This document shows positions 179 to 10,118 of a DNA stretch of 11,316 nt, piece by piece. Both the position numbers and the translations under genes were made by a program. Numbering within the stretch: the stretch's first letter is position 1; every line of letters begins with the position of its first letter. Under the pieces are notes generated by a model. The model worked only from the letters and a program-made list of their open reading frames with translations. It ran no database searches and had not been told where the DNA came from. The DNA comes from Nitrospinota bacterium (GTDB lineage: Bacteria > Tectomicrobia > Entotheonellia > J063): NCBI GenBank assembly GCA_003696125.1, contig RFHZ01000001.1, positions 1 to 11,316 of the forward strand, in the 5' to 3' direction.

Positions 179-853
179 ATGCGTATCCTGGTGGTAGAAG
201 ATGAAAAGAAGCTGGCCAGTTTCCTCAAACGAGGCCTGGAAGAGGAGCATTACGCGGTTGATGTCGCCTATGACGGGGAAGAGGGATGGTATCTGAGCCA
301 GGTCAACGATTACGACCTGATTATCCTCGATATCATGCTTCCCCAGATGGATGGCTTTACCTTCTGTCGAAAACTGCGCAGCCAGCAGCGTGATACCCCC
401 CTGATCCTCCTGACCGCCCGGGATGCGGTCGAAGATCGGGTCACCGGCCTCAACCTGGGAGCAGACGATTACCTGGTAAAACCCTTTGCCTTTGCCGAAC
501 TCCTGGCCCGTATCCGTGCCCTGCTCCGGCGGAAGGATAGCCGGTTTGCGGTCCGGCTCCAGGTGGCCGATCTGATCCTCGACCCGGTCAGCCACCGGGT
601 CAGCCGGGCCGGAAAACCGATCGAGTTGACGGCCAAAGAGTACGCGCTGCTGGAGTTTCTCATGCGTCACGCCGGGGAGGTGGTCACACGAACGCAGATC
701 GCCGAGCATGTCTGGAACCAGGATTTTGACAGCGATACCAACGTTATCGATGTCTATATCAGCTATCTCAGGCAGAAGATCGATCGCGACTTCGAGCCGA
801 AGCTCCTGCACACGGTACGCGGGGTCGGGTATGTCTTGCGAGAGGAGCCATGA
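179..853 (+). CDS. OmpR/PhoB-family response regulator
   Basis: A DNA-binding response regulator of 224 aa, the usual length for this family. The receiver domain (about 1-118) has the acidic pair E7/D8, the phosphoacceptor D51 in ILDIMLP, the switch T79 in LLTAR and K101 in LVKPF. A linker leads to a winged-helix Trans_reg_C domain (about 126-222), with a recognition helix near 186-202 and the typical HTVRGVGYVL ending. ATG179 follows AGGAG (159-163) at a long spacing of 15 nt, so the ribosome site is weak. The stop overlaps the start of the sensor kinase gene (ATGA), which marks a translationally coupled pair. The sequence resembles the QseB/PmrA/CusR branch; the subgroup is inferred. Its likely targets are the 11-bp-phased TTTAAT repeats at 2282-2309 and 3128-3167. 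No such repeats are seen upstream of this gene, so autoregulation is not apparent. Confidence 0.95.
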   Translation: MRILVVEDEKKLASFLKRGLEEEHYAVDVAYDGEEGWYLSQVNDYDLIILDIMLPQMDGFTFCRKLRSQQRDTPLILLTARDAVEDRVTGLNLGADDYLVKPFAFAELLARIRALLRRKDSRFAVRLQVADLILDPVSHRVSRAGKPIELTAKEYALLEFLMRHAGEVVTRTQIAEHVWNQDFDSDTNVIDVYISYLRQKIDRDFEPKLLHTVRGVGYVLREEP

Positions 854-2286
854 GGTTTTACCAGACCTTCCGCTTTCGCCTGACGGTACAGTACATCCTG
901 GTGCTGAGCTTCATCCTCTGCCTCTTCAGCCTCGGGGTGTACTTCGGACTGCAGGAGGTCCTGTACCGCAACCTGGATGCTTCCCTCTGGTCGATTGCCG
1001 AGAGTGAGGTGGCCTCGGCGTTTGATGCTCCTGATGCCAGCATCCACTTTCACGAGCTGGAAGAAAACCCGCTGGTACGCAAGGAGACTCGTTTCGATAA
1101 GTTCGTGCAGATCCGCACCTTCCCCACCGGGCGTCTCGTCGGCAAGAGCCAGAACCTGGGGAGTGGAGAATTACCCCTCAACCCTCAGACCAAGGTCCAG
1201 CTCGCCCTGGGAGAGGTGATCCTGGAGACCATCCAGACCCCTTCCTCTCCCCCCATTCGCCTGATCTCGCTCCCGGTTTTGATGGAGGGTGAGGTGCAGT
1301 ATATCATGCAGGTCGGTGCATCACTGGCCCCGATTCAGACCACGCTTGCCCGCCTGTTCTGGCTGCTGCTGGTCATGGACGGGAGTGCCCTGTTATTCAC
1401 CGGTCTGGGAGGAGCTTTCTTGGCCCGCAGAGCGCTGCAGCCGATCCATCGCATTGTCCATACGGTGGAACAGATCGAGAGCAAGAATCTGGATCAACGC
1501 CTGAAAGTGGAGAATCCTGCCGATGAGATCGGTCGGCTGGCCGGGGTATTGAATCGTATGCTCGACCGGTTAGAGCGGAGTTTTCGCAGCCAGCAGCGCT
1601 TCATCGCCGATGCCTCGCATGAGCTCCGCTCTCCCCTGGCCAACCTGCGTATGGCGCTTGAGCTCACCCTGCGCCGGCCTCGTCAGGAGTCGGAATACCG
1701 TGAAACCCTGCACAGTGCATTAGAGGAAGTGGATCGCCTGGTACGGCTGGTCAATGGCCTGCTCACCCTGAGCCGGGCAGACAGCGATCGCCTGGAGGTT
1801 TCACGCGATCCGGTCCCCCTGCAACCCCTCCTCCAGCAGGTGCTGGTAGACTATCAGCTCCGGGCTAAAGACAAGGGGATCGCTCTCTCCTGGTCCCTTC
1901 CCCAGGTGGCGGTCAGGGGGAACAGAGAACGGCTCTACCAGCTCTTTGCCAACCTCCTGGATAATGCCCTGCGCTATACGCCGGAAGGAGGGGAGGTCAC
2001 CGTTTGCGGGGAGGAAGAGGGAGAGAGGGTCCTGATCCGGGTGGTGGATACGGGTATCGGGATTGCTCCAGAACATCTTCCCCATATCTTTGAACGCTTT
2101 TACCGGGTCGATAAGGAACGCTCGCGGGCAGAAGGGGGGAGCGGGTTGGGACTCGCCATATGCCAGGAGATCGTGCGGGCGCATGGAGGTTCTCTGCATG
2201 TAGAAAGTAGCCCGGGAAAGGGGAGCACCTTTACCGTTGCCCTTCCCCTCTTCCAAACGGGTCCTGCCATGATGAGAGAATTTTAA
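850..2286 (+). CDS. Membrane sensor histidine kinase (HAMP-HisKA-HATPase)
   Basis: A 478-aa sensor kinase, partner of the preceding regulator. Order of parts: short cytoplasmic N-terminus, TM1 about 11-32, extracytoplasmic sensor about 33-168 (no recognised fold, acidic stretch ELEEN at 69-73), TM2 about 169-192, HAMP about 192-245 (with DEIGRLAGVLNRML), HisKA with phosphoacceptor H257 in FIADASHELRSPL, and HATPase_c with the N box at 368-380 (NLLDNALRYTPEG), G1 DTGIGI 400-405, F box FERFYR 414-419 and G2 GGSGLGLAI 429-437. All catalytic motifs are intact. The HAMP-HisKA junction resembles the QseC/CusS group of kinases that sense metals or cationic conditions; the signal itself cannot be read from the sequence. 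GAGGAG (842-847) lies very close to ATG850, consistent with coupling to the upstream gene. The stop codon (2284-2286) lies inside the first TTTAAT half-site of the next promoter. Confidence 0.95.
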   Translation: MRFYQTFRFRLTVQYILVLSFILCLFSLGVYFGLQEVLYRNLDASLWSIAESEVASAFDAPDASIHFHELEENPLVRKETRFDKFVQIRTFPTGRLVGKSQNLGSGELPLNPQTKVQLALGEVILETIQTPSSPPIRLISLPVLMEGEVQYIMQVGASLAPIQTTLARLFWLLLVMDGSALLFTGLGGAFLARRALQPIHRIVHTVEQIESKNLDQRLKVENPADEIGRLAGVLNRMLDRLERSFRSQQRFIADASHELRSPLANLRMALELTLRRPRQESEYRETLHSALEEVDRLVRLVNGLLTLSRADSDRLEVSRDPVPLQPLLQQVLVDYQLRAKDKGIALSWSLPQVAVRGNRERLYQLFANLLDNALRYTPEGGEVTVCGEEEGERVLIRVVDTGIGIAPEHLPHIFERFYRVDKERSRAEGGSGLGLAICQEIVRAHGGSLHVESSPGKGSTFTVALPLFQTGPAMMREF

Positions 2287-2309
2287 TCTTTTTTTAATCT
2301 TCCTTTAAT
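2282..2309 (+). promoter_or_regulatory. Triple TTTAAT direct repeat, putative response-regulator box
   Basis: Three exact TTTAAT copies at 2282-2287, 2293-2298 and 2304-2309 are separated by 5 bp each, giving a perfect 11-bp period; each copy is followed by C. One helical turn between direct half-sites is how OmpR/PhoB-family dimers bind, and the motif matches the published PmrA/QseB box YTTAAK-N5-YTTAAK. The first copy overlaps the stop codon of the sensor kinase gene. The array lies 14-41 bp upstream of a TACTAT -10 candidate, suiting an activator. That the neighbouring regulator binds here is inference. Confidence 0.72.
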
Positions 2310-2322
2310 CTTCTCCAGGCCA

Positions 2323-2328
2323 TACTAT
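2323..2328 (+). promoter_or_regulatory. -10 element (TACTAT) for the secreted acidic protein gene
   Basis: TACTAT matches TATAAT at 4 of 6 positions and is followed by C, as is TGCTAT in front of the PepSY gene (shared TRCTATC). There is no good -35 hexamer, and the TTTAAT array occupies that region, as at activator-dependent promoters. Transcription would start near 2335, leaving a leader of about 120 nt. Confidence 0.5.
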
Positions 2329-2332
2329 CTGA

Positions 2333-2392
2333 TGAGGGGAAGTGGGTAAGCTGCCGGTGTGCATAGTACCTCCTCCACGCCCTTTCCCCTCA
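2333..2392 (+). other. Leader inverted repeat, 9-bp arms
   Basis: TGAGGGGAA (2333-2341) is complementary to TTCCCCTCA (2384-2392), with a 42-nt interior. It falls at the predicted 5' end of the transcript for the gene at 2454, where it could stabilise the leader or affect translation. It matches no known riboswitch that I recognise. Confidence 0.3.
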
Positions 2393-2453
2393 CTCCCACC
2401 TTTATGGATGAAAAAAGGCGAGGGCATCCCGTTTCAAGAGAGGAGGGGGAACG

Positions 2454-2975
2454 ATGAGGAGAAAAACCCCGCCTTTACTGCTCCTGAGTCTCCTGGCTTT
2501 GGCCCTGGCCGTAACACCGGTCTGGGCTGAATTGGAGGGGATCGAGCAGAGCACCAAGACGAAAGGAGCCACCACCATCACCTGGGATTCCAGCTTTGCC
2601 GATTTCGACTATACCCTGGGAGAAGCGATTATTCTGCACGTGGACTGGACCGTGGATGCGGGGGCAGCTTTGTTTTCCGGTGTGGAGTTGAAGCGGTTTA
2701 CTCCCCGTTCTAAGAAAGATCCGGCTGAGGGGACCATGGATAGTGTAACGCTGATTGATGACTCCGATGACGACGATAACGACGATGGTATCTACGAAGG
2801 TACAGTTGAGATCGAACTTACCTTCACCGCCCTCCACCTGGACAAACGGCGAAATGTGGAGATCGGCAATGCACACCTGAAGCTCTACCTGGCGATCGAC
2901 ACGGATGGAGATGGGGAAGTTGATAGTGTGGCCGGTTACGGGGTGAACGTCCATGTAGAGGACCCGCAAGATTAG
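2454..2975 (+). CDS. Small secreted acidic protein with calcium-loop-like motifs
   Basis: A 173-aa exported protein of a family I do not recognise. It has a clear Sec signal peptide: RRK, a leucine-rich core at about 7-20, and probable cleavage after VWA (residue 25). The mature part (about 148 aa) looks mostly beta-strand. It carries an aspartate-rich run at 102-111 (DDSDDDDNDD) and DTDGDGEVD at 149-157. The latter resembles the first nine positions of an EF-hand or thrombospondin-type calcium loop but lacks the usual Glu at position 12. Calcium or other cation binding is therefore plausible, not shown. AGGAGG (2441-2446) lies 7 nt before ATG2454 and fixes the start. The gene sits behind the TTTAAT array at 2282-2309, so it is probably an output of the adjacent two-component system. 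No cysteine follows the signal, so it should be soluble in the periplasm or outside. Confidence 0.85.
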   Translation: MRRKTPPLLLLSLLALALAVTPVWAELEGIEQSTKTKGATTITWDSSFADFDYTLGEAIILHVDWTVDAGAALFSGVELKRFTPRSKKDPAEGTMDSVTLIDDSDDDDNDDGIYEGTVEIELTFTALHLDKRRNVEIGNAHLKLYLAIDTDGDGEVDSVAGYGVNVHVEDPQD

Positions 2976-3053
2976 GATGCGGTAAACCCGGGGAGGAGAG
3001 ATTACGAACAGAAAGAGAGTGCAGGCCTTACCTGGTGATTTGCCGCCTGCCAG

Positions 3054-3107
3054 GACACCAACCGTATAGATTCCCTCTGGGATGCCCTTGCCACAGCGGT
3101 TGGTGTC
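3054..3107. repeat. 11-bp inverted repeat around a small internal hairpin
   Basis: GACACCAACCG (3054-3064) is exactly complementary to CGGTTGGTGTC (3097-3107), 32 nt apart. Inside, TCCC (3072-3075) pairs with GGGA (3079-3082) across a 3-nt loop. Just upstream, GCAGGC (3021-3026) pairs with GCCTGC (3045-3050) and CCTGG (3031-3035) with CCAGG (3050-3054). No U-tract follows. It may end or stabilise the upstream message, be a structured RNA, or be a remnant of an inserted element. Confidence 0.5.
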
Positions 3108-3127
3108 AAAGATCTCTGGAAATACCG

Positions 3128-3167
3128 ATTAAGAAACTTTTAATCCCGCTTTAACCTTCTTCTTAAC
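3128..3167 (+). promoter_or_regulatory. Four TTAA half-sites, putative response-regulator box
   Basis: ATTAAG (3128-3133), TTTAAT (3139-3144) and TTTAAC (3150-3155) are each 11 bp apart; CTTAAC (3162-3167) follows 12 bp on. The motif and phasing match the array at 2282-2309 and the PmrA/QseB-type box. The fourth site ends 7 bp before the -10 candidate TGCTAT. The copies are more degenerate than in the first array, which could mean weaker binding. Use by the adjacent regulator is inferred. Confidence 0.65.
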
Positions 3168-3174
3168 CTCCCTG

Positions 3175-3180
3175 TGCTAT
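3175..3180 (+). promoter_or_regulatory. -10 element (TGCTAT) for the PepSY-lipoprotein unit
   Basis: TGCTATC mirrors TACTATC at the first promoter. No consensus -35 is present; the TTAA half-sites take its place. Transcription would begin near 3187, giving a leader of about 93 nt. Spacing from the half-sites differs from the first promoter by 6 bp, which weakens the parallel. Confidence 0.42.
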
Positions 3181-3279
3181 CCTTATTTTCCAGACAGCGG
3201 CGTCAAGGGAAAGGCAGGGGCAAAAAGAGGACTTATCCCCTGCAAGTTCAACGGTATTTTCTGGAAAAGGAGAGAGCAT

Positions 3280-3822
3280 ATGCAGCGGAGAAAACGAGTC
3301 GTTGCCGGTATCTTACTCCTCTGCGGTATCCTCACCTCTTCCGCCCTGGCGGATGAGAAGGAGGAACGATGGGAATTCTGGGGACACAAAGGATACGCTG
3401 TTCCCCAGGTCTCGGCAGCCGACGCCCGGAAAGCGGTCCAGGAGTCACAAAAGACCTGGCAGGTGGCCACGGTGCGCCAGAAATGGGAACGAGGGGGAGC
3501 CGAGGTGTCGGTATTGGTCCGGGATAGAGAAGGGATCATCGCCAAAATAGGTATTGACCCGCAAACCGGAGAGCTCCTCCCCTATTCGGTGGAGGCGTAT
3601 AGCAGGGAGGTAAAGGTTTCCCCGCAAGAAGTGCAGCAGAAGGTGGAAACCCTGCTCCCACAGATCGAAGTGGGTAATAGAGCCTGGTTGGGAGAGCATG
3701 GCCGGTACTGGCGCATTCCCCTCTTCTGGAAAGGGATGCTGGTCAGTACGGTAAAGGTCGACGCGCTTAGTGGAAGGCTGCTGCCCCGGCGGTACGGGCA
3801 TGATGAGGAAGAAGAGGATTAA
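3280..3822 (+). CDS. Secreted protein with two PepSY-like repeats
   Basis: A 180-aa exported protein. The signal peptide (RRKR, hydrophobic 7-22) probably ends at SALA, residue 24. The mature part contains two similar units: a helix beginning VSAADARKAV (44-53) or VSPQEVQQKV (113-122), then beta strands ending in KIGIDPQTGELLP (89-101) or VKVDALSGRLLP (158-169). This helix-then-V.VD..TG.LLP pattern is the PepSY signature, so the protein is probably a tandem PepSY pair. PepSY domains occur as inhibitor or binding modules in secreted and envelope proteins, and small PepSY genes often lie next to QseBC/PmrAB-like systems. The C-terminus is strongly acidic (DEEEED). AGGAG (3268-3272) lies 7 nt before ATG3280. 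The lipoprotein gene follows on the same strand with a 70-nt gap and no terminator, so the two are probably cotranscribed from the promoter at 3128-3180. Confidence 0.8.
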   Translation: MQRRKRVVAGILLLCGILTSSALADEKEERWEFWGHKGYAVPQVSAADARKAVQESQKTWQVATVRQKWERGGAEVSVLVRDREGIIAKIGIDPQTGELLPYSVEAYSREVKVSPQEVQQKVETLLPQIEVGNRAWLGEHGRYWRIPLFWKGMLVSTVKVDALSGRLLPRRYGHDEEEED

Positions 3823-3892: not shown

Positions 3893-5611
3893 ATGTTACC
3901 ACGAATACGAACCGGGCTCTGGAGTATCGGACTCCTCCTCTTGCCCCTTTTCCTCTGGTCGTGTGGAGGAGGGGGAGGCGGTGGCTCGTCCCAACCCCAG
4001 GCCTCTACTCCCCCTGCTCAGGTTGCGACCTCTCTGTTCGTGACCGATCGCAGTGCGGATGAGTTTGCCCAGGTCTTTGTTACCGTGAAACGCGTCGCCT
4101 TAAAGAGGGCTGATCAGACCCATCTCCTCTTCGATGATGCCAGCGGAATCCCGCTCAATCTGCTGGAACTGGCAGGAGAGAAGCGCCTGCTCGGGGTTGC
4201 CCCTCTTCCCCCGGGCAGGTACGAGGTGGTTATCACCGTGGATAACATGGTGACCCTGGTGGAGAAGGATGGTACCACTCGAGAGGGACATTTCACGCAA
4301 GATGGCGATTTCTCCTTTAATGGAAATGGAGAGGTCACCGTGGCCGAGGATTCTCCTGAAGTCGTTCTCGATTTTGATACCCGCTCTTTTGACTTTGATC
4401 CGGATAGCGGTGTAATCACCCCGGCCGTCACCGTCTCCCCTCCTGCCAGCGCCACCCTCCCTTTCAGCGGGAAACTGGAAGGGGTAGTCATGGAGGTTAC
4501 AGACGCTACGAACTTCTCCCTGCAACTCGAACACAGCACCCAGACCGTTACCGCCACCCTCCTCCCTGGGGCAACGGTGCTGGACGAGGCAAGCGGCCAG
4601 ACCAGCACCACCACCGATCTGCTGGAAGCAGGGCAGAAGGTAGAGGTGCGAGGCGACTACCAGCCGGCCACCCTCCACATCGATGCCTTCACGGTCAAGA
4701 TCGACTCCCACCGCGCTGCTCCCCCTCCTTCTGATTACGTTAAGGTCGAGGGAAACATCATCAGCATGGGAGAGAACAGCTTTACCCTGGGTATCCACGA
4801 GGCCAAGGGATTCATCCCTACCGGTGGGAGCATCGAGGTCCAGGTCGATACCAGCACCTTTATCCATGAAGATCATACCCATACTCCCCTCACCTTTGCC
4901 GACCTGCAGCCCAACCAGATGGTGGAAGTGAAAGGTACGCTGGAGGGGGGAAGCATCCTGGCCGACGTGATCGAGGTAAAGCGGGCCACCGTTTTGCCTC
5001 CTCCCCCACCGGCAGGAACCTGTACCACCACCCCGTCTCAACAATGGACGGATTTCTTCGGCACCACCTTTCCCCTCTTCAGCGAGCTGGAGGGGACACT
5101 TTCTGAGGTCAGCGGAGAGACGATTACGGTCAACGGGATAGAGGTGGTGCTGGTGCAGGAGACGATCCTTCATATTGATGATAACGGGAACATCTGCCCG
5201 GAAGACCTGCCAGATTTCCAGGGGAACCGGGTCGAGGTGAAGGTCGCCTTTGCCGGGGATACGGCGGTGGCGCATAAGGTGGAAATCAAGGATGCTGGAA
5301 CCCCTGCTCCTCCCCCTCCTCCACCCCCCTCTGCAGGCGGGGAGATCACGGAAATCGTCCTGGATCATGAAGGGGAGCATCCGCTGGTCCATGTGACCGG
5401 GACCGGCTGGGTTAAGGTGGAGGACAAGGCGGTCATCACCGATGCCCAGGGAAACTTCATCCCGCCTTTTACCCTGTTCACCGACCAGGCCGATTTTGTG
5501 GGGAAAGAGTTTGTGATCACGGTGGGAGAAGCGGAGAATAAGAGTGAAAAGACCAGCGATGGACGCACCGTGACCATCGTCCTTGAGGTCAAACAGGGAC
5601 AGGTGTTGTAA
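3893..5611 (+). CDS. DUF4382/DUF5666-type multidomain lipoprotein
   Basis: A 572-aa lipoprotein. ATG3893 is chosen because AGGAGG (3879-3884) lies 8 nt upstream and because it puts the lipobox LWSC at a normal place (Cys24); an ATG at 3860 would add 11 residues and has a poorer ribosome site. After a glycine run, residues about 45-165 resemble DUF4382 (ATSLFVTDRSADEFAQVFV, L.PGRYE at 105-111). Then come three DUF5666-like beta units, about 192-270, 282-364 and 396-467, each with an opening (V/L)EG strand, a VLVDE- or FIHED-like middle and a closing VEVKG-like strand. A fourth, more divergent unit spans about 483-567. Proline linkers at 276-279, 369-373 and 471-479 separate the units. Two cysteines after the lipobox (377, 435) might pair. 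The function of these families is unknown; OB-fold-like binding modules are a reasonable guess. Anchored at the cell surface or outer membrane, it ends the + strand gene group. Confidence 0.82.
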   Translation: MLPRIRTGLWSIGLLLLPLFLWSCGGGGGGGSSQPQASTPPAQVATSLFVTDRSADEFAQVFVTVKRVALKRADQTHLLFDDASGIPLNLLELAGEKRLLGVAPLPPGRYEVVITVDNMVTLVEKDGTTREGHFTQDGDFSFNGNGEVTVAEDSPEVVLDFDTRSFDFDPDSGVITPAVTVSPPASATLPFSGKLEGVVMEVTDATNFSLQLEHSTQTVTATLLPGATVLDEASGQTSTTTDLLEAGQKVEVRGDYQPATLHIDAFTVKIDSHRAAPPPSDYVKVEGNIISMGENSFTLGIHEAKGFIPTGGSIEVQVDTSTFIHEDHTHTPLTFADLQPNQMVEVKGTLEGGSILADVIEVKRATVLPPPPPAGTCTTTPSQQWTDFFGTTFPLFSELEGTLSEVSGETITVNGIEVVLVQETILHIDDNGNICPEDLPDFQGNRVEVKVAFAGDTAVAHKVEIKDAGTPAPPPPPPPSAGGEITEIVLDHEGEHPLVHVTGTGWVKVEDKAVITDAQGNFIPPFTLFTDQADFVGKEFVITVGEAENKSEKTSDGRTVTIVLEVKQGQVL

Positions 5612-5613
5612 GC

Positions 5614-5645
5614 AGCAGGGGGGCAGGGATCCCTGTCCCCCTGCT
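5614..5645. terminator. Shared hairpin between convergent genes
   Basis: A nearly perfect inverted repeat centred on GGATCC: 5614-5629 pairs with 5630-5645 over 16 positions, with one G-T pair at 5623/5636 (A-C mismatch in the opposite transcript). It fills the 33-bp gap between the convergent lipoprotein and dehydrogenase genes and even includes the first base of the - strand stop codon. There is no T-run on either side, so it is either a bidirectional hairpin that protects 3' ends or an atypical terminator. Confidence 0.6.
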
Positions 5646-7024
5646 TATCCGAGTACCCCGCTCTCGCTTAACACCTCCTCGCACAGCCCTTCCAGTACCC
5701 CGAGGTCATGGGCAAAATCGAGCACGGTATAGCGTCCCCGGATGTCCTTGGCATGCAGAAAGGCGGTACGCAACTCCTCTGCCCCGATGCCCAGCTCACG
5801 CATGGTAGTAGGAGCCCCGGCCGCCAGCAGGATCTCCCGGATCCGGGCTGCCGGGACGAGAATGGGAGAGAGTTCTTGCCAGATGGTGTCCCAGTTTTCC
5901 CGGATCCATTGCCATTCCTTCTCCTTTTCCGGCAGGGGCAGGTATTTCTTCCTGGCCTCGGCGATCACCTCGACGGCCAGGGGACCGTGGATCTTGTGTA
6001 GCGATTGCTCCAGCTCTTCCCAGTCCGGGTATTGACGACGCAACGCGGTCCAGTCGATGGCCTGCGGATCGAGTCGTTGCAGCTTTTCGTAAAGGGTAGC
6101 AGAGACCAGGGTGGCGACCCCGACCTGGGCCCCGTGGAAGTTCTCTTCCCTCCCATGCCAGTGGGCGGTCATGTCCCAGTAGTGGGAGAGGAGGTGTTCT
6201 CCACCCGAGGCCGGGCTGGACGAACCGGCCACGACCATAGAGAAACCGGAGAGGATCAGGGCTTCGGTCAGGATCCCTATGGCCCCTTTTTCCCCCTGCC
6301 CGATCGCTGCAGCATTAGCCCGGCAGGCCTGTTCTGCTTCCTCCACGATGCGTAAGGGGACCTCGCAATAGTACCCCCCTTTGATCAACTGCGTAAGCTT
6401 CCAGTCTGCGTTGGAGACCGGCTTGGAGATCATGTCTCCCAGACCAGCCCGGATCATGGCCGGAGGGGCGGTGGAGAGGATATTGAGATCGGCCACCACC
6501 GCCACCGGGGTATGGGCAGGGATGGTCCGTTTCACTCCCCGGCTCAAGATGGCGGCGATTCCTGAGGTAAAGCCGTTCATGGAAGGGGCGGTGGGGCAGA
6601 CCAGATAGGGACGTTCTGCCTGGTAACTGGCCAGCTTGGCGACATCGTTGACCGTACCCGCCCCTACCGCCACCAGGAAATCGATGGCATCCCGGATCCG
6701 GGTCCGCACATGGGCAACATTCTCGTCGTCTGCCACCACTCTGCCGTCGGCACGGGTGCGCAGGAAGAGCGGTTCGACCGCATAGCCTGCGTCGGCAAGG
6801 TACTTCTGTACCCGCTCCCCGGCGATCCGGTAGGTGACCTCATCCACCACCAGCAGGACCTGTTTTCCAGGAAGGTAGCGGGTGCAGCAGGAAGGGACCT
6901 GCTCTAGAGCCCCTTCAGCTATTATTACCGCCTGCGTAGGAATGGTATGCTCGACTCCACAGGTACAGGAGAGGGTCTTTCCCAGGAGTTGCTGGATGGA
7001 AAACGGCGGTGTCGGTGTGGACAT
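5645..7024 (-). CDS. sn-Glycerol-1-phosphate dehydrogenase (AraM/EgsA type)
   Basis: A 459-aa cytoplasmic dehydrogenase that interconverts dihydroxyacetone phosphate and sn-glycerol-1-phosphate with NAD(P)H. It belongs to the metal-dependent glycerol dehydrogenase-like group. The nucleotide-binding loop is GAGTVND (121-127), followed by CPTAPSMNGFTS (143-154). Likely metal ligands are D197 (LGDMISK), H277 (SGGEHLLSH) and H297 (FHGAQVGVAT). It is longer than B. subtilis AraM (about 394) and archaeal EgsA (about 350), with additional sequence around 335-390 and a long C-terminal helical part. The start at 7024 is 1 nt past the ugpE stop, with GAGGAG 7 nt upstream inside ugpE. An open frame runs 59 codons further upstream, but that stretch is Cys/Ser/Arg-rich and lies over ugpE, so I reject it. 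Last gene of the ugpBAE operon; no prenyltransferase (PcrB/GGGPS) gene is nearby to show that it serves ether-lipid synthesis. Confidence 0.88.
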   Translation of the reverse strand: MSTPTPPFSIQQLLGKTLSCTCGVEHTIPTQAVIIAEGALEQVPSCCTRYLPGKQVLLVVDEVTYRIAGERVQKYLADAGYAVEPLFLRTRADGRVVADDENVAHVRTRIRDAIDFLVAVGAGTVNDVAKLASYQAERPYLVCPTAPSMNGFTSGIAAILSRGVKRTIPAHTPVAVVADLNILSTAPPAMIRAGLGDMISKPVSNADWKLTQLIKGGYYCEVPLRIVEEAEQACRANAAAIGQGEKGAIGILTEALILSGFSMVVAGSSSPASGGEHLLSHYWDMTAHWHGREENFHGAQVGVATLVSATLYEKLQRLDPQAIDWTALRRQYPDWEELEQSLHKIHGPLAVEVIAEARKKYLPLPEKEKEWQWIRENWDTIWQELSPILVPAARIREILLAAGAPTTMRELGIGAEELRTAFLHAKDIRGRYTVLDFAHDLGVLEGLCEEVLSESGVLG

Positions 7025-7025
7025 G

Positions 7026-7850
7026 TTACTTCTCCTCTTGCATGGCGAATCCCTGGACAAAGCTCTTCTGCAGGAGAAAGAGGACGATGAGCGGGGGGAG
7101 CATGGCAATGATCGTTCCGGCCATGATGACATTCCACTCGGCTGCCTGCGCTTGCTGCAGCAAGAGCATCTTGATCCCGATCTGCACCACCCGCATCTCA
7201 TCCGAGTTGGTCACCACGAGCGGCCAGAGGTATTGATTCCACATGTAGATGAATTCGATCATGAAAAGGGCAGCGATATTGGTACGGGCCAGGGGCACCA
7301 GGATACGCACCAGGAAGCTGATCGGTCCGGCTCCATCGATCCGTGCCGCATCGGACAGGGAGAGGGGAACGGTGAGGAAGAGCTGGCGGAAGAGGAGGGT
7401 GCCGGTGGCACTGGCAAAGAAGGGGATGGTGAGGGCATAGTAGGTATTGACCCAGTTGAAATCCTGCATCAGCTCAAAGGTGGGCACGATACGGATGGGA
7501 AGGGGGAGCATGTGCGTGATCAGGATGATCACGAAGAAGAATCCCTTGCCCCGGAAATCCCCGAAATAGGTGAAGGCAAAGGCAGCCATCAGCGAGAGCA
7601 CGATTTTGCCCAGGGAAACGGCAACAGAGATCAGGGTGCTGTTCCAGAGGAGGCGTCCCATGTTCACCTGTTTCCAGGCCTGCGTGTAGTTCTCCCACAG
7701 ATACCTTCCCAAAGAGAACCTGGGGGGAAAGACATCCTGGTAGGCGTGCGTGCTGACGATAAAGGCGAAGATGACCGGAAAGGCGATCAGGAGGATCGCG
7801 ATGATGAGGATGGCATGGATCAGGAACTGAAAAGAGAGTCGTTTTTTCAT
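7026..7850 (-). CDS. ugpE: UgpE-like ABC transporter permease
   Basis: A 274-aa inner-membrane permease of the MalG/UgpE branch of the carbohydrate-uptake (CUT1) family. It has about six membrane segments: near 11-32, 70-95, 104-121, 138-158, 188-210 and 241-262. The cytoplasmic EAA loop, which contacts the ATPase, is at about 164-187 (SLSDAARIDGAG then VRILVPLA). It would pair with UgpA to form the channel for glycerol phosphate delivered by UgpB. The start lies 10 nt after the ugpA stop with only a weak GTAGAGAA ribosome site, so coupled translation is likely. Assignment to the glycerol-phosphate branch rests mostly on the strong UgpB match. Confidence 0.88.
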   Translation of the reverse strand: MKKRLSFQFLIHAILIIAILLIAFPVIFAFIVSTHAYQDVFPPRFSLGRYLWENYTQAWKQVNMGRLLWNSTLISVAVSLGKIVLSLMAAFAFTYFGDFRGKGFFFVIILITHMLPLPIRIVPTFELMQDFNWVNTYYALTIPFFASATGTLLFRQLFLTVPLSLSDAARIDGAGPISFLVRILVPLARTNIAALFMIEFIYMWNQYLWPLVVTNSDEMRVVQIGIKMLLLQQAQAAEWNVIMAGTIIAMLPPLIVLFLLQKSFVQGFAMQEEK

Positions 7851-7860
7851 CGGCTATTCT

Positions 7861-8742
7861 CTACTGATAGAAGACCCATCGTCTGGCAAAGCGAAACTGG
7901 GCAAGAGTCAAAATAGCGACCACCACGAAGAGGACGATCGACTGGGCCGAGGCGTACCCGGTGCGTAGGCTGGCAAACCCATCATAGTAGAGCTTGTACA
8001 CCAGCACTTCGGTGGCGCGTCCCGGTCCTCCCGAGGTCATTACATCGATGAGACCAAAGACTTCGAAGAATCCATAGAGGACATTCATGATGAGGAGGAA
8101 GAAGGTGGTGGGGGAGAGGAGCGGGAGGGTGATCTTCCAGAAACGCTGCCAGGCTCCGGCGCCATCGATCTGGGCAGCTTCCAGTAACTCCTCCGGGATG
8201 ATCTGTAATCCGGCCAGGAAGAAGATGATGTTGTAGCCGAGCATCTTCCAGGTTGCCGCTCCGGTCACCACCACCAGGGCCAGGGTCCCGTTCGTCCTCC
8301 AATCCGGCGTGTACCCGAAAAGGGAAGAGAAGAAGTAAGAGAGCACCCCGGTGGCAGGATCAAAGACGAGTGCCCAGATGGTGCCGGCCACGGCCGGGGA
8401 GAGGGCGTAGGGCCAGATCAGGGCGATACGGTACACGCCGATTCCCCGGATCTTTTGATTGGCCGTCACCGCCAATCCCAGGGAGACCACGAGTCCTACA
8501 ACCACTAAAGCCAGGGTAAAGAGAAAGGTGATCCAGAGGCTGTGGAGGTAAGCGGCAGAGGAGAAGAGTTTGATGAAGTTATCGAATTGCACATAGATGC
8601 GACGATTGCCAAAGGGAGCCATGCGGAAAAAGCTTAAATAGAGCGACTGGAAGGAGGGATAGATGAGGAAGATGAACACGACGATTACCGAAGGTGCGAG
8701 CAACAGATAGGGGAGTACCTTATGCGGAAATCTGCTCTCCAT
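7861..8742 (-). CDS. ugpA: UgpA-like ABC transporter permease
   Basis: A 293-aa inner-membrane permease of the MalF/UgpA branch. Membrane segments are seen near 10-30, 71-95, 105-125, 153-178, 207-229 and 263-283. The EAA loop is at about 184-208 (EELLEAAQIDGAG, then FWKITLPLL). It lacks the large periplasmic insertion of MalF, as is normal for UgpA. The 56-nt gap after ugpB contains interleaved hairpins, and no good ribosome site is visible directly before ATG8742 (only AAAAAAGA), so expression may be lower than that of the binding protein. No ugpC-type ATPase gene follows in the operon. Confidence 0.88.
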   Translation of the reverse strand: MESRFPHKVLPYLLLAPSVIVVFIFLIYPSFQSLYLSFFRMAPFGNRRIYVQFDNFIKLFSSAAYLHSLWITFLFTLALVVVGLVVSLGLAVTANQKIRGIGVYRIALIWPYALSPAVAGTIWALVFDPATGVLSYFFSSLFGYTPDWRTNGTLALVVVTGAATWKMLGYNIIFFLAGLQIIPEELLEAAQIDGAGAWQRFWKITLPLLSPTTFFLLIMNVLYGFFEVFGLIDVMTSGGPGRATEVLVYKLYYDGFASLRTGYASAQSIVLFVVVAILTLAQFRFARRWVFYQ

Positions 8743-8756
8743 GATCTTTTTTAGGT

Positions 8757-8796
8757 GGGGGAGAGAGGAGGTCCTGCCCTCCCCCTGTTGACCTCC
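8757..8796 (-). other. Two interleaved hairpins between ugpB and ugpA
   Basis: GGGGGAG (8757-8763) is complementary to CTCCCCC (8779-8785), and GGAGGTC (8767-8773) to GACCTCC (8790-8796). The arms alternate, so the stems either exclude each other or form a pseudoknot. Stem-loops after the binding-protein gene of ABC operons commonly protect the upstream message and cut down expression of the permeases; that role here is inferred. Confidence 0.45.
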
Positions 8797-8798
8797 CT

Positions 8799-10118
8799 TT
8801 ATTGATAGAGTTCGTTGTATTCGCTGAGCAGTCGATTCGCCTCGGCTGCCGCTTCGTCCAGCGCTTCTTTGGGAGAGAGAGTCCCCTGGATGGCCTTTTC
8901 TAACGCCGAGCGGAAGGCTTTGCGGATGGCGACAAAGGGACCCAGGCGAACCCCCTGTGAGGCCGGGGTCTTGACCCCGGTCAAGATCTGGAGAAAGGCG
9001 GTCAGATGGTTGGGATGCTGGGAAAACCAGCCCTCATCCAGGAGGAGCTTGACCGCGCTGTTGGTCGCCGGGAAATAGCCGGTGTCTTTGTGCCACTGGG
9101 CCGTAACTTCTGGCCGGATCATCCATTTCAGAAACTCCTTGATGGCATCGTACTCTTTCTGAGAGTGACCTTTCAGCACCCAGATGGTGGCGCCACCGAC
9201 CACCGAATTCCCCCGTTCATACCCTTGAAAGCGGGGCAGAAAACTCGTTCCCACCTCAAACTTCGCCGCCTTGGTGATGGAACCGACCGAGGAGGTGGAC
9301 TGGAAGAGCATGGCGATCTTCCCGGCCAGGAAAGCGTCGTTGGCCCGGTACTCTTCACCCCCGTAGATCAAGATCTTCTTCCTGGCCAGATCGACCCATT
9401 TCTCCACCACCTTGACCCCGAAGTCCCCGTTGATAAGGACCTTGGTGGCCCGTCCTGCCCTTCCGTTTTTGTTATTGGCGTAAAACTGGTTGTGGAGGGT
9501 ATGCATCTGCTCAAACTGCCAGCCAGGCCAGCCAAAGCTCAGGGCGTGGGGAACCACACCACTCTCCACCAGCCGCTTCCCGACCTTTTCCACCTCTTCC
9601 CAGGTGCTGGGTGGTTTATTCGGGTTCAACCCGGCTTTGCGGAACAGGTCTTTGTTGTAATAGAGAATGGAGGTGGAGGAGTTGAAAGGCATGGAGTAGA
9701 GTTTGCCATCAACCGCATAGTAGTCATGGATGGGACCGATCACATCCCCCCAATCGACCTCTCCCGGCTTAAAGAGCTCGAACACCGGAACGATCGCCCC
9801 GCTGTCCAGCATGGTCTGGGTTCCCACCTCGTAGATCTGGGCCAGGTGGGGAGGTGTTCCGGCCTTGACCGCAGCGATGGTCTTGGCCAGCACCTCTTTA
9901 TACTTCCCGGTGAATTGCGGCTCCACCTGGATCCCGGGATGGGCCTTGTTGAATCCCTCCACTATCCGGTTGACCGCCGGCATTCGCCTGGCGCTCATGG
10001 CATGCCAGAAGGTGATCTTGATCGGCTCCTGGGCCGCAAGGGGAAGAGGATTCCACCAGAGGGTAAGCGTAAACAATCCGATGAGTACCGCTATGAGAGA
10101 AAACCTGGACTTTACCAT
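8799..10118 (-). CDS. ugpB: UgpB-like glycerol-phosphate binding protein
   Basis: A 439-aa periplasmic substrate-binding protein (bacterial extracellular family 1). A Sec signal peptide with hydrophobic core 7-22 probably ends near LAA (residue 29); there is no lipobox. Landmarks match E. coli UgpB closely: FWHAM (37-41), YEVGT (96-100), PFNSSTSILYYNKD (144-157), GWPGW (196-200), GGATIWV (308-314), TGYFP (346-350), GVRLG (389-393). From memory of the E. coli protein, its glycerol-3-phosphate ligands correspond here to Y73, E97, S147/S148, S276/S277, G308/G309, Y348 and R391, all present. Substrate is thus likely a glycerol phosphate or a glycerophosphodiester; whether the site tells G3P from G1P cannot be read from the sequence. 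AAGGAGGG (10125-10132) lies 6-7 nt before ATG10118, the strongest ribosome site of the operon. Transcription probably starts from 10250-10278. Confidence 0.92.
   Translation of the reverse strand: MVKSRFSLIAVLIGLFTLTLWWNPLPLAAQEPIKITFWHAMSARRMPAVNRIVEGFNKAHPGIQVEPQFTGKYKEVLAKTIAAVKAGTPPHLAQIYEVGTQTMLDSGAIVPVFELFKPGEVDWGDVIGPIHDYYAVDGKLYSMPFNSSTSILYYNKDLFRKAGLNPNKPPSTWEEVEKVGKRLVESGVVPHALSFGWPGWQFEQMHTLHNQFYANNKNGRAGRATKVLINGDFGVKVVEKWVDLARKKILIYGGEEYRANDAFLAGKIAMLFQSTSSVGSITKAAKFEVGTSFLPRFQGYERGNSVVGGATIWVLKGHSQKEYDAIKEFLKWMIRPEVTAQWHKDTGYFPATNSAVKLLLDEGWFSQHPNHLTAFLQILTGVKTPASQGVRLGPFVAIRKAFRSALEKAIQGTLSPKEALDEAAAEANRLLSEYNELYQ

Follow-up and report, generated by a model that had tools for sequence, protein, structure and literature searches.

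Regulator, kinase and neighbouring genes

The analysed stretch of DNA (the window; 11,316 nt, to whose numbering all positions without a prefix refer) belongs to G000, the source genome of an uncultured bacterium and a fragmented assembly of 4.18 Mb with 8% estimated contamination. The contig begins 178 bp before a gene (179-853, plus strand) encoding a response regulator with a receiver domain (PF00072, E 1.4e-31) and a Trans_reg_C winged helix (PF00486, E 8e-31), which placed it in the OmpR/PhoB family. A score of 304.1 bits against TIGR01387, above the cut-off of 279.2, assigned it to the heavy-metal (CopR/CusR/SilR) subfamily, and the orthologue in the relative G003 scored 289 bits. The recognition helix is NVIDVYISYLRQKID. 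An initial annotation of the window had cited PmrA and QseB boxes for comparison with the arrays. A PmrA or QseB identity for the regulator was rejected, since its scores fell short of both equivalog cut-offs (PmrA, NF007928, 213 vs 330 bits; QseB, NF007663, 188.2 vs 345 bits). The next gene (850-2286, plus strand) encodes a sensor histidine kinase with HAMP, HisKA and HATPase_c domains. Its TIGR01386 score of 290.6 bits was just below the cut-off of 292.55, and it was not assigned to the heavy-metal sensor kinases. Two further features lie upstream of the regulator gene. At the edge of the contig (1-35) are about 2.5 copies of a tandemly repeated 14-bp unit, CGAGTAATGAGTAA, and about 80 bp before the gene is a G+C-rich palindrome (GGGGCGCAGCGCGCTGCGCCCC, 79-101).

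Three plus-strand genes downstream of the kinase are predicted targets. The first (2454-2975) encodes a secreted acidic protein which had no Pfam match and was present only in G000 among the five genomes of the phylum. The second (3280-3822) encodes a secreted PepSY-like protein with a weak match, below the cut-off, to PF03413 (E=0.073). The third (3893-5611), in the same operon as the second, encodes a lipoprotein with DUF4382 and DUF5666 domains. The minus strand at 5645-10118 appeared by eye to encode a glycerol-1-phosphate dehydrogenase-type enzyme and a glycerol-phosphate/sugar ABC transporter with two permeases and one binding protein.

Three Trans_reg_C domains were found in the genome: in the window regulator, in a regulator on contig C585 and within a 1271-aa frame. 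Only the first two belong to OmpR-type regulators. The recognition helix of the C585 regulator (VIEVMIYNIRKKF / NVIEVMIYNIRKKF) is unlike that of the window regulator (VIDVYISYLRQKI). Comparison with G003 showed 84% identity for the window regulator, with an unchanged recognition helix (VIDVYISYLRQKID in G003), and 64% identity for the kinase.

Repeat arrays and the putative promoter element

A nine-base identical unit, TTTAATCTT, occurs in three copies at exact 11-bp steps from 2282. The three plus-strand TTTAAT hexamers reported in the initial annotation were confirmed at 2282-2287, 2293-2298 and 2304-2309 (site W1), and the first covers the kinase stop codon (TAA, 2284-2286), as had also been described. 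A second set, W2, comprises ATTAAG (3128), TTTAAT (3139-3144), TTTAAC (3150-3155) and CTTAAC (3162-3167) with steps of 11, 11 and 12 bp, the last three being plus-strand direct half-sites. In the window, TTTAAT-N5-TTTAAT with up to two mismatches was observed four times vs 0.13 expected, and YTTAAK-N5-YTTAAK with up to one mismatch four times vs 0.14 expected. Of 300 shuffles, 4 gave an identical hexamer triple at any single spacing of 8-16 bp, and one gave such a triple at a spacing of 11. The raw lag-11 self-similarity of the window was undistinctive alone, as lag 15 scored equally high.

When anchored at the first direct half-site, W1 and W2 could be aligned across about 60 bp. A purine-rich block precedes the array in both (ATGAGAGAAT in W1, TTAAGAAACT in W2). 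Next come TTTAAT at position 0 and TTTAAY at +11. The third half-site stands at +22 or +23, and in both sites a -10-like hexamer is found at +39. The putative -10 hexamers, in register with the other sites, are CATACT at 2321-2326 (alternatively TACTAT at 2323-2328), 11 bp past the third half-site of W1, and TATCCT at 3178-3183, 10 bp past that of W2, all on the plus strand. No conventional sigma-70 -35/-10 pair was found in 2200-3300. The heptamer TRCTATC, noted initially downstream of each array, is present at 2323 and 3175. Its distance from the first tandem half-site is unequal (41 vs 36 bp) and it was discarded as a common promoter motif because it is out of register.

A scan with leave-one-out matrices over all offsets and both strands (220 offset/strand combinations) ranked the three direct positions first to third and offset -10 on the minus strand fourth, with a leave-one-out mean of 3.6 bits vs an all-offset mean of -7.1 (sd 3.6). 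This pointed to a likely inverted half-site that the original description of the arrays had omitted. In W1 it is ATGAGA (2272-2277, minus strand; reverse complement TCTCAT), and 4 bp separate it from the first direct half-site. In W2 the inverted half-site is weak at this spacing and a 5-bp spacing fits better: ATTAAG at 3128-3133 (minus strand; reverse complement CTTAAT) scored 6.8 bits at offset -11. The steps of the four-repeat set were upheld; its first member is most likely an inverted half-site and not a fourth direct repeat. An inverted half-site also occurs in the relatives G001 and G002, both outside the matrix. At offset -10 it would form a 6-4-6 inverted pair with the first direct half-site, which is the layout of CopR/PcoR/AgrR boxes. 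It is graded as a likely component and no more firmly because W2 prefers the 5-bp spacing. Overall, W1 and W2 represent one putative promoter element of about 60 bp, in which a probable inverted half-site is followed by two to three half-sites in tandem and, 10-11 bp further on, by a -10-like hexamer.

Occurrence of the element in the genome and in relatives

A search of the 4.18-Mb genome with YTTAAY-N5-YTTAAY found the window sites and one site each on contigs C907 and C990. The C990 site has every other feature of the element. The C907 site (C907:571, TTTAACTATAGCTTAAT) does not; it failed the full model and was dropped. A search with the -10 hexamer added found a further site on C509, and a matrix of these four sites found one site in G003. 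In order to avoid circularity, a model was then built from W1 and W2 only and run over the five whole genomes of the phylum. Beyond its two source sites, it returned C990 (E 2.8e-6), G003:C11:74283 (E 2.6e-5) and C509 (E 2.8e-5), with no further match up to E=10 in the five genomes. Each of the three shares its orientation with a gene whose product is an exported or membrane protein. The gene downstream of C990 encodes a secreted protein with a weak match to DUF5666 (E 0.17), a domain that the window lipoprotein also has, and that downstream of C509 encodes a small DUF2231-related membrane protein. In G003 the element is predicted to drive two genes, the first homologous to the C509 gene (51%) and the second, directly behind it, to gene 3280 (51% identical, E 5e-50). 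The two genes have separate copies of the element in G000, and their homologues share a single copy in G003. Alignment of C509 with the G003 locus showed that the element stands out against poorly aligned flanks. No homologues of genes 2454 and 3893 were found in G003. An apparent decayed DUF5666 coding remnant was noted by eye 3' of the G003 homologue of gene 3280 (L037:11456-11650).

Both checks proposed in the initial annotation, scanning the genome and comparing relatives, supported its operator claim. Since the promoters at C990 and C509 lie elsewhere in the genome, the proposed regulon was retained as a set of operators but is not solely local, having at least two further promoters. The presence of the element before two more genes for envelope proteins, and before one operon in a relative, is taken to mark a small, otherwise ordinary bacterial stress regulon, as predicted here. 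Several points were counted against the operator reading. The element was not found in G004 despite a regulator of 67% identity with a similar helix, no copy was found before the regulator gene in G003, a TTTCAT-type 11-bp pair lies near the C585 regulator gene, and the assembly is fragmented and partly contaminated by estimate. The 178 bp available before the regulator gene in the window also contained no copy, and no array was found after the kinase gene in G003. None of 80 loci with members of the DUF2231-like family, drawn from many phyla, matched the full element (best score 8.6 bits, E 1.8), indicating that the exact element is confined to G000 and G003 among the sequences searched.

Arrays with 11-bp steps were found beside the regulator genes of related systems in the same class and in Saprospiraceae. 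In G001 and G002 (regulator 57%), 11-bp arrays of TCTAAG/TCTCAT/TCTTAA/TCTCAT (TCTMAK type; L040:4871-4930 and, on the minus strand, L039 near 5985) lie directly after the kinase gene and precede a degP-like protease gene (named by eye). At two Saprospiraceae loci (regulator 49%), TTTAAG-N5-TTTAAG-N5-ATTAAG (L101:2231-2258 and L097:750-777) lies just before the DUF2231-like gene which heads an operon with the regulator and kinase genes. At an acidobacterial locus (L063), a C509-type gene adjoins a gene for heavy-metal RND-type efflux (by eye) and a related regulator/kinase pair. A TTTAAC/CTTAAT/TTTAAT array in G019 (TTTAACATAACCTTAATTTTCATTTAAT, L042:2580, minus strand) was rejected as kin. 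It lies before genes for a porin and a PstS-like protein, a PhoR-like kinase is encoded nearby, and it is therefore probably a Pho box unrelated to the window element.

The sites could instead belong to, or be shared with, the C585 regulator, their nearness to the window system then being due to chance or cross-talk. An 11-bp pair, TTTTTCATCTA-TTTTTCATCTT, does lie upstream of a secreted-protein gene at the C585 locus (L152:3956-3979), and its TTTCAT half-site also occurs at C509 and in G003, so that half-sites of the two regulators could overlap. This pair scored only 5.7 bits against the model, though, and is possibly the operator of the C585 system itself. The differing C585 helix, the retention of the window regulator's helix in G003, where the element is also kept, and the position of W1 against the window kinase gene make this explanation very unlikely.

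Predicted regulation and comparison with known systems

Most likely the neighbouring regulator docks at the repeated TTTAAT motifs. The central claim of the initial annotation, that both arrays serve the adjacent two-component system as operators, gained strong comparative support. In its favour were the matches of the two-site model, the conservation in G003, the presence of only two OmpR-type regulators in the genome and the 11-bp arrays of G001, G002 and the Saprospiraceae loci. We consider it highly probable that W1 and W2 are operators of the regulator at 179-853, acting by class II activation on envelope genes that include those of the C990 and C509 promoters. From the element, its rarity, its conserved spacing, its place before co-directional envelope genes and its co-conservation with the regulator, all seen in the sequence, we infer a course of signalling, phosphorylation, binding and activation. 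The kinase would sense an envelope or metal signal and phosphorylate the regulator, whose protomers would then line up along a single face of the DNA, occupying an inverted ATGAGA-type half-site and two to three TTTAAY-type half-sites that follow in tandem at intervals of one helical turn. Standing in for the absent -35 box, the bound regulators would bring RNA polymerase to the -10 hexamer, 10-11 bp downstream. Predicted targets are gene 2454, the PepSY-like/DUF5666 pair 3280/3893 and the two promoters elsewhere in the genome. Class II activation is proposed because a gap of 10-11 bp separates the last half-site from the -10 hexamer, as in CiaR, whose sites are predicted with the -10 at ten bp (PMC3091779), and in PhoP, with 11-12 bp to the -10 in architecture I (PMC3335776).

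The window regulator might bind these sites and repress, rather than activate, the promoters, as the element overlaps the -35 region that RNA polymerase would cover. The distance of 10-11 bp and the lack of a recognisable -35 box are instead the class II layout known for PhoP (PMC3335776), CiaR (PMC3091779) and AgrR (PMC7380067), and repression is judged very unlikely. A chance or low-complexity origin with no regulatory role, for which the T-rich units and the hexamer triples at spacing 8-16 in 4 of 300 shuffles could speak, is largely refuted already and hardly credible, as composition alone would yield many matches in five genomes and the two-site model added only three, all before functionally related genes.

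Within the preferred reading of W1 and W2 as activating operators, a hybrid form is conceivable, although doubtful, in which a head-to-head 6-4-6 pair, as is typical of metal regulators, and two further head-to-tail half-sites would be occupied by three to four protomers assembling cooperatively. If true, the series of G000/G003, G001/G002 and Saprospiraceae would show one lineage moving between inverted and tandem recognition, a natural series of heavy-metal-type regulators shifting from inverted to tandem sites. More generally, for a phylum represented by the genomes of five species, the analysis describes a two-component system together with its regulator, a candidate binding element and four predicted promoters. 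In addition, it ties the DUF5666, DUF4382, DUF2231-like and PepSY-like families of unknown function into one predicted envelope regulon.

AgrR sites have the core ATKACA-N4-TGTMAT, built as a 6-4-6 inverted repeat; direct half-sites may be added in phase, and the sites are placed as for class II activation (PMC7380067). The window regulator belongs to the same subfamily as AgrR, CopR and PcoR, and its element may likewise combine a 6-4-6 inverted pair with direct repeats. The half-site differs (TTTAAY/TCTMAK here vs TGTMAT), direct repeats dominate here, and ATKACA-N4-TGTMAT itself was not clearly above chance. The helix positions also differ from PcoR (VAVRRLR vs VYISYLR in the window regulator), the window helix being closer to that of CiaR (VVEVYVSKVRKKL), which it resembles, than to that of PcoR (VIDVAVRRLRSKI).

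PmrA binds the half-sites CTTAAT and CCTAAG head-to-tail (PMC3973317) and has the consensus YTTAAK-N5-YTTAAK (PMC10729948). The initial annotation had ascribed this box to both PmrA and QseB. The PmrA consensus occurs exactly twice at W1 and with one mismatch at W2, a resemblance of sites only, whereas one cited QseB consensus has another form (PMC10729948). Besides the regulator score, W2 differs from the PmrA box in that most of its half-sites lack the final K. For HP1043 (HsrA), a Helicobacter pylori regulator, the -35 box is replaced by direct repeats of TTTAAG with an 11-bp spacing (PMC5253667), but HP1043 is an orphan, essential and phosphorylation-independent regulator.

CiaR of streptococci recognises TTTAAG-N5-TTTAAG direct repeats with the -10 ten bp downstream (PMC3091779). 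The CiaR form NTTAAG-N5-TTTAAG, with an invariant final G said to be essential, was absent from the direct half-sites of the window, where this position is T or C in six of six. Furthermore, CiaR boxes have two half-sites and not three plus one inverted, and CiaR belongs to another phylum and has other targets. By analogy, the window system appears to work like CiaR without being a member of that group. Overall, the system makes no claim to be of a new kind and, as read here, belongs among the known two-component regulons.
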